This document shows, in pieces, positions 51,462-55,122 of a stretch of DNA of 64,000 nucleotides; position 1 is the stretch's first letter; each line of letters begins with the position of its first letter. The notes under the pieces were generated by a model. The model searched no databases. It saw nothing but the letters and a program-made list of their open reading frames with translations, and was not told where the DNA came from. The translations under genes were made by a program, and so were the position numbers. The stretch comes from a bacterium (lineage in GTDB: Bacteria > Patescibacteriota > Microgenomatia > UBA1406 > GWC2-37-13): contig JAJYIQ010000001.1 in NCBI GenBank assembly GCA_021789995.1, positions 310,001 to 374,000 of the forward strand. Direction: 5' to 3'.

Positions 51462-53150
51462 ATGAAAATTATTCTTAAACACGAATTCCATCCCGGCGAC
51501 AAGATCGACAACGAGGAAATAATCAATTTATTGCTGAAAAACAGGCAGATCGAGAATATTGAGGAATATCTCCATCCACTCTCCCCGCTAAAAATCCACC
51601 TGACCGATTTTGGTCCGCCAGCTGGCGGATGGGAAAAAACGATTAAATTATTGGAGAAAATAAAAAAAAATGGCGAAACAATCATTGTCTATACCGATTA
51701 TGACGCTGACGGTATAACCGGCGGCGCCATCCTCTGGGAAACCCTCCATCTGCTGGGATTTAAAGTCATGCCCTATGTCCCCCACCGCATACTTGAAGGT
51801 TATGGTTTTTCCGTCAAAGGCATCGATACCGTCAAGAAGGAATTTAATCCTTCGCTAATTATCAGCGTCGATCACGGTATATCGGCCCGGGAAAAAATCA
51901 AGTACGCCAAATCGCTTGGCATCAACATCATCGTCACCGACCACCATCTGAAACCGGAGAAAATACCGGAGGATGCGACAGCCATATTCCATATTCCCGC
52001 TTTATCCGGCAGCGGCGTCGCCTATTTCTTTGCTAAAGAAATATTTGATCATTTTAAAAGGTATGGACAGCCTAATACGCTATCCCTACAAAATAATTTT
52101 GAAACGGATTACTTGGCATTGGCATCGATCGGCTCAATCGCCGACCTGGTACCGTTAACCGGTCCAACCAGAAGTCTTGTCAAACATGGATTGGATGCTT
52201 TTAACGGTTGTAAGCGGATTGGTTTGAAACACATCATTAAGGAAGCCGGCATTGACGGCCGGAAAATCACTCCCTATGAAATCGGTTTCATCATCGCCCC
52301 GCGGATTAATGCCGTTGGCCGCCTGGAGCATGCCATTGATGCCTTACGATTGTTGTGCACCCATAACGACGATACCGCCCGCAAACTGGCAAGCCGGGTC
52401 GGAATGACCAATAAACAAAGGCAGGATATGGTCGTTAAAGCTATCGAAGAAGCCAAACAAACGGTGGAAAAACAGTACGGAAAAAAATTACCGAAAATCA
52501 TTATCCTGGAAAATAAAAACTGGCACGAAGGCATTATCGGCCTGATCGCCTCAAAAATAGCCGAAACCTATTACCGCCCGACAGTCGTCATCACCGACAG
52601 CGACGGTTTCATGAAAGGTTCGGCCCGCTCCATTCCTTCTTTCCACATCACTAATTTTTTGCGCGACAATAAAAAATATCTGATCGATATCGGAGGTCAT
52701 AAGGGAGCCGCCGGTTTTACGATGGAAAAGGAAAAATATAATGACTTTGTTACGGCTGTGGGAAAATCGTCAAAAAAGTTGATTGATGATAAGGATTTGG
52801 AGAAAACGATCGAAGCCGACCTTAAATTGCCGGTCGCCAAGGCGACGGTAAAACTAGTGCTGGCGATGGAGAAATTACAGCCTTTCGGCGCCGGTAATCC
52901 CCAACCGGTATTTTTGAGCCGGGTGGAAATCATGGATGCCAAGCTTTTTGGCAAGAAGCAGGAACACGTCAAGATCTACGTCAAAGATCCCGGGGAAAAC
53001 TCCTTCCCGCTTGAGCTTATCTCTTTTTATAATTCTAACTTATTCATGAAGCTTTCCCCGGGCCAGGTGACCGACGTCGTCTATAGCTTGCTTATTGACC
53101 GCTGGAACGGAAGAGAAAACGTGAGGGGAAAATTACTATTTATCAGTTGA
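51462..53150 (+). CDS. recJ: Single-stranded-DNA-specific exonuclease RecJ
   Basis: 562 residues. DHH motifs I to IV: YTDYDADGITGGAIL (about 76-90), SVDHGIS, VTDHHLKPE (about 154-162) and LASIGSIADLVPL; then DHHA1 with KGSARSIPSF and DIGGHKGAAGFTM, and an OB-type C-terminal domain (FGAGNPQPVFL). 5'-3' exonuclease in recombination and repair. Eight nt after rmuC. Its last 15 nt overlap the convergent orphan gene. Confidence 0.96.
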   Translation: MKIILKHEFHPGDKIDNEEIINLLLKNRQIENIEEYLHPLSPLKIHLTDFGPPAGGWEKTIKLLEKIKKNGETIIVYTDYDADGITGGAILWETLHLLGFKVMPYVPHRILEGYGFSVKGIDTVKKEFNPSLIISVDHGISAREKIKYAKSLGINIIVTDHHLKPEKIPEDATAIFHIPALSGSGVAYFFAKEIFDHFKRYGQPNTLSLQNNFETDYLALASIGSIADLVPLTGPTRSLVKHGLDAFNGCKRIGLKHIIKEAGIDGRKITPYEIGFIIAPRINAVGRLEHAIDALRLLCTHNDDTARKLASRVGMTNKQRQDMVVKAIEEAKQTVEKQYGKKLPKIIILENKNWHEGIIGLIASKIAETYYRPTVVITDSDGFMKGSARSIPSFHITNFLRDNKKYLIDIGGHKGAAGFTMEKEKYNDFVTAVGKSSKKLIDDKDLEKTIEADLKLPVAKATVKLVLAMEKLQPFGAGNPQPVFLSRVEIMDAKLFGKKQEHVKIYVKDPGENSFPLELISFYNSNLFMKLSPGQVTDVVYSLLIDRWNGRENVRGKLLFIS

Positions 53151-53501
53151 ACTAACGTTCATACTGACCGCAAGTCTCTCTACTTCTCCCAGTAACTTTT
53201 TATGCAATTTATCGTTATTTGTGTTAAGTTGCATCCGGCCCAATTTATTTGCCAACGCAATTCCTTGTTTTTCGGATAGAGGAGAAACATTTACCAACAA
53301 ACTCATTTCATCCCGCGGATGATCTTTCATCGAATTACCTAAAGCTCTGCCTCTTTCAGGATTAATATTGGTTAACCATCGTAAAAAATCCCTCGTACTA
53401 CAATATCGGGCAATATAGGTCAGACCTAAGCCGACTGTCAACCCCTTTAATGCAAAAGTGGCTATTTCCTGAGTATTTTGATTAAAACGTTTTATTTCCA
53501 T
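53136..53501 (-). CDS. Orphan protein behind a structured leader
   Basis: 121 residues, no recognised domain. A weakly hydrophobic helix near 15-32 (ATFALKGLTVGLGLTYIARY), then a basic, Asn/Ser-rich helical part. Start ATG at 53501 lies 8 nt after the U-run of an intrinsic terminator, so it can be expressed only if the leader transcript reads through. No Shine-Dalgarno. Convergent with recJ with 15 nt overlap. Confidence 0.55.
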   Translation of the reverse strand: MEIKRFNQNTQEIATFALKGLTVGLGLTYIARYCSTRDFLRWLTNINPERGRALGNSMKDHPRDEMSLLVNVSPLSEKQGIALANKLGRMQLNTNNDKLHKKLLGEVERLAVSMNVSSTDK

Positions 53502-53509
53502 ATACCAAT

Positions 53510-53648
53510 AAAAAACCCCGCTTTTGGCGGGGGTGATTTTTTAACTTTTTCAGGCTACTCAATCACCCCACACTCCGTAAACCTCTTAATGAGGATAACG
53601 AAGTATTGGCGAATATATTGATTTACGATTTTTTTCATATTCTTTTAG
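53510..53648 (-). ncRNA. Structured leader RNA with terminator/anti-terminator
   Basis: Predicted transcript of about 140 nt. Elements in RNA order: a 27-codon frame (53638-53555); hairpin 1, CTTCGTTATCCTC (53603-53591) with GAGGTTTACGGAG (53585-53573), 11 of 13 positions paired around ATTAA; then GGGGTGATT (53569-53561), a perfect 9-nt complement of AATCACCCC (53538-53530); and the terminator CCCCGC-CAAAA-GCGGGG (53532-53516) with six U. The 9-bp pairing takes three of six pairs from the terminator, so the two compete. No riboswitch or T-box class I know fits. It may be a cis-regulator or a free small RNA. Confidence 0.6.
53555..53638 (-). CDS. Possible 27-residue leader peptide
   Basis: ATG at 53638, about 10 nt after the predicted transcription start, stop TAG at 53557-53555. 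Basic and Ile-rich (MKKIVNQYIRQYF at the start, ending TECGVIE). The last five codons cover the GGGGTGATT strand of the anti-terminator, so a translating ribosome would favour the terminator. No run of one amino acid marks it as a classical attenuator peptide. Confidence 0.4.
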   Translation of the reverse strand: MKKIVNQYIRQYFVILIKRFTECGVIE

Positions 53649-53654
53649 TATTTT

Positions 53655-53683
53655 ATCATACTGAATCATATAATTTCTGTCAA
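53655..53683 (-). promoter_or_regulatory. Promoter of the leader RNA
   Basis: Reverse strand TTGACA (53683-53678), 17-nt spacer, TATGAT (53660-53655): among the best matches to the sigma-70 consensus in the window. Confidence 0.75.
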
Positions 53684-53751: not shown

Positions 53752-55122
53752 ATGAAAAATCTATTTGTTGAAAAAACCGTTGATAAAATCGGGCAGGAAG
53801 TGGAGCTTTACGGCTGGGTAGACAGCGTCAGGAACCATAAAAAAATAATCTTTCTCGACTTACGCGATCGGACAGGTGTCATCCAGGTGGTTGGCGACGA
53901 AAGGTTGAAAGATATTTCGCCGGAAGATGTCGTTTATATCAAAGGGCTGGTGAAGAAACGGCCGGATAAGCTTGTTAACCCGAAAATCAAAACCGGGACA
54001 GTTGAAGTGGAAATCAATGATTTTAAAATTTTGGGGGAATCCAAAACGCCGCCGATGCCAATCAATACTGCCGGCTATGAAATCGATGAGGAAATCCGCC
54101 AGAAATACCGTTATCTGGATTTGCGCCGGAGCCGGCTGACAAACAATATCATCAACCGTTCGCAATTTATCCAGCTCATCCGCGAATTTCTGTTCACGAA
54201 GAATTTCATCGAAATCGAAACGCCGATTTTGACCGAATCTACACCGGAGGGAGCCCGTGATTTTTTGGTCCCGTCCCGTCTGCAACCTGGTAATTTCTAC
54301 GCCCTTCCTCAATCACCTCAACAGTATAAGCAATTATTAATGGTCGCCGGGTTCGAACGCTATTTTCAGATCGCCCGCTGCTTCCGCGATGAGGATCCGC
54401 GGGCCGACCGGGCCTATGGCGAATTTACACAGCTTGATATGGAAATGAGTTTTGTCCAACGGGAAGACGTCATGGCAATTACCGAAGCTTTAATGATCGA
54501 TGTTTTTGAAAAAATGGGAGCAAAAATTCAAAAAAAGCCGTTTCCGGTCTTTACCTATGAGGAAGCGATGAAAAAATTCGGCGCCGATAAATTCGATCTA
54601 CGGACCGATGATGAAAAAAAACAAAATATCCAGGCGTTTGCCTGGGTAGTGGATTTTCCCTTTTTCGAAAAAACGCCCGAAGGCGGCTGGACTTTTACCC
54701 ACAACCCGTTTTCCGCGCCAAAGCCGGAATTTAAAGAACAATTGTTGAAAAAAGAAAATATCGGTGAAATCCTGACAACCCAGTATGATTTGGTGTGTAA
54801 CGGCTACGAAGTCGGAGGCGGCAGCATCCGCAGTCATGAAGCGAATGTTCTGGAAACTGTTTTCGAAATCATGGGTTATAGCAAGGAACAAATCCGGGAA
54901 CAATTCGGTCATATGCTGGAAGCGTTTTCCTACGGTGCGCCGCCGCATGGTGGTATCGCTCCGGGAATCGACCGGCTGCTTACTTGTTTGACCGGCGAGA
55001 AATCGCTTCGCGAAGTCATTCCCTTCCCAATGACTGCCGGCGGAAAAACGGCCGTAATGAACGCCCCGTCTGCAGCTCGACCGGAACAACTGAAAGAATT
55101 AGGTATCAAAATTAATAAATAA
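53752..55122 (+). CDS. aspS: Aspartyl-tRNA synthetase, lacking the bacterial GAD insertion
   Basis: 456 residues from the ATG at 53752, which is 7 nt after an extended -10 (TGTTATAAT; -10 at 53739-53744). OB-fold anticodon domain with LYGWVDSVRNHKKIIFLDLRDR (key G, W, R; about 21-42), class II motif 2 ARCFRDEDPRADR (about 208-220), and motif 3 GGIAPGIDRL. Between DKFDLR and WVVDFPFFE only about a dozen residues remain where bacterial AspRS carries a GAD domain of over 100 residues. So it is an archaeal-length AspRS of bacterial sequence type; it might charge tRNA-Asn too. Confidence 0.93.
   Translation: MKNLFVEKTVDKIGQEVELYGWVDSVRNHKKIIFLDLRDRTGVIQVVGDERLKDISPEDVVYIKGLVKKRPDKLVNPKIKTGTVEVEINDFKILGESKTPPMPINTAGYEIDEEIRQKYRYLDLRRSRLTNNIINRSQFIQLIREFLFTKNFIEIETPILTESTPEGARDFLVPSRLQPGNFYALPQSPQQYKQLLMVAGFERYFQIARCFRDEDPRADRAYGEFTQLDMEMSFVQREDVMAITEALMIDVFEKMGAKIQKKPFPVFTYEEAMKKFGADKFDLRTDDEKKQNIQAFAWVVDFPFFEKTPEGGWTFTHNPFSAPKPEFKEQLLKKENIGEILTTQYDLVCNGYEVGGGSIRSHEANVLETVFEIMGYSKEQIREQFGHMLEAFSYGAPPHGGIAPGIDRLLTCLTGEKSLREVIPFPMTAGGKTAVMNAPSAARPEQLKELGIKINK

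Follow-up and report, generated by a model that had tools for sequence, protein, structure and literature searches.

A leader on the minus strand between aspS and a recJ-like gene is probably a ribosome-mediated (leader-peptide) transcription attenuator that governs an orphan gene; judged from sequence, it is a new instance of a known mechanism. The leader lies within a 64-kb stretch of DNA from an uncultured Roizmanbacteria-type bacterium (64,000 nucleotides, hereafter the window) and is followed by the orphan open reading frame (ORF) on the same strand. Its divergent neighbour, aspS (plus strand, 53752–55122), encodes aspartyl-tRNA synthetase and serves as the locus anchor in relatives, and its convergent neighbour is a recJ-like gene (plus strand, 51462–53150) that is also present in the sister genome. 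Neither gene was named by a family search: aspS was named from its sequence and its matches, and the recJ-like gene by inspection.

All elements of the leader are on the minus strand. The promoter, TTGACA-17-TATGAT (53655–53683), has its −35 box TTGACA at 53683–53678 and its −10 box TATGAT at 53660–53655, separated by a 17-nt spacer; it matches 11 of 12 consensus positions and is also kept by the sister genome. The promoter by itself cannot count as proof, because a scan expects about three promoter-like sites by chance in the window. Transcription is expected to start near 53648, an inferred position that would leave a 5′ untranslated region (UTR) of about 10 nt before a leader peptide ORF of 27 codons (MKKIVNQYIRQYFVILIKRFTECGVIE; 53555–53638). 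Inside this ORF lies the region 1:2 hairpin (53573–53603), whose 13-nt arms (53603–53591 and 53585–53573) form 11 of 13 pairs and which can be extended into the antiterminator arm. The 5′ arm of the antiterminator, region 2 (GTGTGGGGTGATT; 53561–53573), contains a core, GGGGTGATT (53569–53561), with perfect 9-nt complementarity to AATCACCCC (53538–53530). The latter is the 3′ arm of the antiterminator and belongs to region 3 (AATCACCCCCGC; 53527–53538), where it overlaps the 5′ arm (CCCCGC, 53532–53527) of an intrinsic terminator, CCCCGC-CAAAA-GCGGGG plus six T (53510–53532), that is conserved in relatives; the 3′ arm of this terminator, GCGGGG, occupies 53521–53516 and the T-run 53515–53510. 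The orphan ORF (121 aa; 53136–53501), in a frame favoured by its codon usage, is the predicted controlled gene, and its start at 53501 is 8 nt past the U-run. The terminator is also bidirectional-looking (53516–53541), and in plus-strand orientation it could stop transcripts that run on from the recJ-like gene, antisense to the orphan.

The folding of the leader RNA is stronger than its composition would give, with a z-score of −4.9 and none of 200 shuffles equally stable. Antiterminator pairing and the upstream fold each have p of about 0.005, the lowest value reachable with 200 shuffles. The antiterminator (2:3) and the terminator (3:4) are mutually exclusive, and the core 1:2 hairpin abuts region 2, such that it competes with the antiterminator only through the extension of the hairpin. 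Thus far the original prediction is borne out: it had described a near-consensus promoter, a hairpin with 11 of 13 pairs, a 9-nt complementarity in conflict with a GC-rich terminator and its six U, and an orphan gene starting 8 nt beyond them, and each is found at the positions given above, with region 3 shared by both helices. Its further suggestion, that the 27-codon frame covers the antiterminator strand and that translation could therefore be the sensed event, is supported by relatives in which the 1:2, 2:3 and 3:4 helices and the placement of the ORF stop recur (see below).

In the proposed mechanism, RNA polymerase would start about 10 nt upstream of the leader AUG, with a ribosome behind it. 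Free translation of the 27 codons would bring the ribosome to the UAG, where it would cover region 2; regions 3 and 4 would then pair, the terminator would form and transcription would end before the orphan gene. A ribosome that stalled over the predicted control block, GTT ATC CTC ATT AAG AGG (Val-Ile-Leu-Ile-Lys-Arg; 53582–53599), would instead mask region 1 and leave region 2 free to pair with region 3, which would permit read-through into the orphan gene. Without translation, the 1:2 and 3:4 helices would both form and the orphan gene would be off. The control block was assigned from sibling leaders with evident control codons, and its codons begin between 26 and 11 nt before the base at which the antiterminator arm starts to pair. 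Actual translation, termination and read-through are inferred.

A DNA search of 57 relatives revealed the leader in the one same-genus genome among them, the sister (locus in MAG DBS2-1.bin80), with 75% identity from promoter to terminator and in the same slot between aspS and recJ; judged by AspS, a Roizmanbacteria genome is also closely related. Behind the sister leader lie ORFs of 205 and 114 aa, both unrelated to the orphan. These comparisons support conservation of the leader independently of the orphan gene, which is absent from the sister. Some 20 related genomes have leaders of the same anatomy upstream of aspS in divergent orientation, and the layout shared by these leaders comprises a promoter, an ORF of 11–31 codons, a hairpin, a G-rich arm near the ORF stop, an A-rich spacer, a C-rich arm, the terminator and a gene start. 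The genes behind them mostly differ and include a Nudix protein, a methyltransferase and many that have no assigned family; an RNB protein lies behind L012, the one leader among the 22 analysed that is not beside aspS. Some relatives have a gene in the aspS slot but no leader, and two leaders (L042 and L043) look decayed. Related proteins also occur in the slot, namely orphans of 408 and 423 aa at L050 and L053 (27% identity, E of 9e-21) and a family of 124/126-aa proteins at L063 and L039. At L036 and L069, the 3′ arm of the terminator reads GGAGG and is followed by T6–7 and ATG, so this arm could double as the Shine–Dalgarno site of the gene.

At the level of predicted pairing, three helices that compete with one another are shown by comparison of the 22 leaders, as is the placement of the ORF stop. 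A sequence-only MAFFT alignment gave no consensus fold beyond four terminator pairs, with weak column covariation; therefore, pairing was tested in each leader against 200 dinucleotide shuffles, scoring both the strongest pairing that the upstream part can make with the terminator 5′ arm and the stability of that part by itself, and by partner swap. Antiterminator 2:3 pairing reached p < 0.05 in 19 of 22 leaders (Fisher p of 8e-20), as did the upstream 1:2 fold in 19 of 22 (Fisher p of 1e-19), combined values that are optimistic because the leaders are related. When partners were swapped among 21 leaders, pairing averaged −16.1 kcal/mol with the leader's own terminator arm versus −13.4 kcal/mol with those of others, and none of 20,000 permutations was as good. 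The ORF stops at region 2 in 20 of 22 leaders, versus 5.3 expected from shuffles (p of 4e-11, for a position window set after inspecting the data), and ORF openness alone is weakly significant (Fisher 0.036, 22 leaders). Column counts in a plain alignment, with 74% of cells paired versus 41–56% when slid, are suggestive only. For covariation, which the original prediction had named as a check, the column-based count on the sequence-only alignment is weak.

The search of relatives with a covariance model, proposed at the same time, was carried out with a model of the leaders and gave matches in 48 of 57 genomes. This model has only four base pairs, and some of its weak matches are therefore plain terminators (for example, G000:C3:537970); a further weak match, G000:C4:49611, was rejected, as it has no convincing leader peptide. 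Among the best model matches read, sibling leaders carry control codons that match the next gene for Cys, Trp, Ser, Phe/Tyr, Ile/Leu/Val and Lys (L252, L250, L236, L238, L241, L005, L011, L019, L007 and L233). By NCBIfam, a CCC leader precedes an enzyme of the cysteine synthase/cystathionine beta-synthase type, W and W precede trpE, and a Ser-rich leader peptide precedes a serB–serA fusion, an ILV-run leader ilvB, a Lys-codon leader lysA and a YYFFFY leader a fructose-6-phosphate aldolase. FYFYFY leaders precede DAHP synthases (a weak NCBIfam match for L241, otherwise read from the protein sequence), and an ILV leader precedes ilvE, again read from the protein sequence. Where region 2 could be placed, sibling control codons mostly start 12–30 nt upstream of it; automatic re-derivation left L236, L233 and L013 out of this placement. 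The window's own genome contains two tandem attenuators, FIFILI and FFFF, each before an orphan gene (L213, G000:C2:89800-93000), with covariance model matches on the minus strand at G000:C2:92066-92173 and 91431-91537; MVNGALFIFILITPLSGGRM precedes a 159-aa orphan and MKQRVTYFFFFTPLLAGRCFN an 81-aa orphan. Taken as sequence evidence, the siblings with matching control codons indicate that the leader layout is used as an amino-acid attenuator in the lineage.

Other siblings are recorded as observations. At L239:349-1881, an HH leader precedes a histidine ammonia-lyase-like gene (NCBIfam), a catabolic function and odd logic for a starvation attenuator. The proteins behind the TTTT (and Cys) leaders at L232 and L234 are related to each other (30% identity) and have no Pfam family. 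In G005, an ILV leader with ilvE and an acetolactate synthase gene occurs in three near-identical copies (L242, L243 and L244, on contigs C3, C8 and C10), which could be either a real duplication or an assembly effect.

Given the attenuation mechanism, there is roughly an even chance that the signal sensed by the window leader is a shortage of branched-chain amino acids (BCAAs). In its control zone, Val, Ile, Leu and Ile codons lie 26, 23, 20 and 17 nt from region 2, with Lys next at 14 nt and AGG, a rare Arg codon, at 11 nt. The sister has Leu, Val, Leu and Ile at 27, 24, 21 and 18 nt (block Leu-Val-Leu-Ile-Arg-Arg), and G013 has Ile, Val and Leu at 24, 21 and 18 nt (block Ile-Val-Leu-Lys-Arg), nearly the same distances as in the window. 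VILI, LVLI and IVL thus occupy the same zone as the evident control codons of siblings. In-frame enrichment of Ile ATT, Leu CTC/CTT, Val GTC and Arg AGG trinucleotides is observed in the leaders, a frame bias that is partly shared descent. Acetolactate synthase was not found in the window's own genome (0.9 Mb, 93% complete) or in the sister by a search that was positive in 14 of 14 control genomes; the cell is therefore probably a BCAA auxotroph, and the leader would read outside supply. A review describes Patescibacteria as lacking amino-acid synthesis and apparently dependent on uptake (PMC11665869).

The ILV block is not universal, and ILV codons are sparse in the control zone of the aspS-side leaders L046, L059, L063 and L069. 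The leader might instead act as a general translation monitor, in which any slow or stalled ribosome in its first half would free the antiterminator and no specific amino acid would be sensed. The absence of a single control residue common to all aspS-side leaders and the differing downstream genes favour this reading, as do the shared Tyr/Phe-Gln codons, since pairing of TATCAA with TTGATA in the RNA accounts for them; we regard it as rather doubtful, however, as runs of three or four ILV codons are retained in the control zone of the window leader, the sister and G013. It is unlikely that the same attenuator has the rare codon AGG as its limiting step and senses Arg-tRNA for AGG, rather than BCAAs. 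AGG occurs at 2.3 per 1,000 codons in long window ORFs, yet 19 of 22 leaders carry it in frame (27 occurrences in frame, 12 off frame), often 11–15 nt upstream of region 2, with one copy in the window leader and two adjacent copies in the sister leader. However, many of these AGG codons make up the 3′ arm of hairpin 1:2 and can be explained by structure together with an inherited frame, and in siblings whose control is evident the codons are runs for the regulated amino acid.

An arrest peptide of the TnaC/Erm type, which would itself stall the ribosome on a ligand or drug, is very improbable. As in such systems, the position of the short ORF is conserved, but the peptides diverge strongly both between window and sister and across genera, and no known resistance gene is present among the scanned downstream proteins. 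Moreover, the shared residues coincide with RNA pairing, and the conserved Tyr/Phe-Gln codons were rejected as an arrest motif on the same TATCAA–TTGATA grounds. Scarcely any weight attaches to a metabolite riboswitch, or to a plain small gene or sRNA with an ordinary terminator and accidental complementarity: a promoter and terminator alone would yield a short RNA, and the terminator looks bidirectional, but the leader has no Rfam match at threshold, its relatives share partner-specific 2:3 pairing and stop placement, and siblings have matching control codons.

Comparison with Rfam, likewise suggested beforehand, returned only two tRNAs from the window at the gathering threshold, and no leader, T-box or riboswitch match. 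A relaxed search of ten loci gave sub-threshold Trp and Phe leader matches only: 35.9 bits for the sibling trpE leader against Trp_leader RF00513 (cut-off 41), 33 bits for the sibling aldolase leader against Phe_leader RF01859 (cut-off 55) and a chance-level 25.3 bits for the sister leader against Trp_leader. The original prediction had proposed an attenuator or riboswitch of no known class. The attenuator part is supported; the leader fits ribosome-mediated, leader-peptide attenuation and is therefore, in our reading, neither a riboswitch nor an unknown RNA class.

Like the enterobacterial trp, pheA, his, ilv, leu and thr attenuators, the window leader has a short ORF, regions 1–4 with 1:2, 2:3 and 3:4 alternatives, a GC-rich terminator with a U-run and control codons just upstream of region 2. 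Unlike them, it has almost no 5′ UTR and a short, mixed control block, and it precedes an orphan gene in a genome without detected acetolactate synthase. T-box leaders also perform amino-acid-responsive transcription attenuation, but they do so by direct binding of uncharged tRNA and require no ORF, whereas the window leader has an ORF and no T-box match at the Rfam gathering threshold. Outside the Enterobacteria, leader-peptide elements have been predicted for ilvB, cys, trp and leuS in Actinobacteria (PMC1262725), and a Corynebacterium study describes an ilvB-II uORF (PMC10272879). In these two sources, the elements are, as in this lineage, short ORFs found by comparison, with Ile/Val/Leu or Cys runs before biosynthesis genes. 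There, they precede the matching pathway and several of the actinobacterial cases lack recognisable attenuator elements, whereas the window leader has such elements and the aspS-side leader is kept while the gene is exchanged. A leucine-rich attenuator peptide before the S. aureus ilv-leu operon likewise senses BCAAs, although its target is BCAA synthesis itself, in contrast to the orphan here (PMC5794164).

The orphan has no visible link to amino acids. A search of 57 genomes gave it no relative with a meaningful score (none in the sister); it has no Pfam match and no match in phage records, and its structure model is all-helical and, at a mean pLDDT of 47, uninformative. Kinship with the 124/126-aa proteins of L063 and L039 was considered and rejected, the likeness being one by eye and not significant.

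Little work has been done on gene regulation in the Candidate Phyla Radiation, and a literature search on attenuation in CPR/Patescibacteria returned no paper, although this does not prove that none exists. A conserved attenuator with Trp, Phe/Tyr, Ile/Leu/Val, Cys, Lys and Ser siblings would suggest that these reduced bacteria sense amino acids through translation. It is possible, although we hold this tentatively, that a reduced, host-dependent lineage keeps attenuators after pathway loss as portable starvation sensors before fast-changing orphans, with a fixed aspS-side slot in which the gene is repeatedly exchanged. The attenuator family would offer a way to guess what orphan genes respond to, and should the targets be genes for starvation or host contact, the nutrient signal could be read from the leader.
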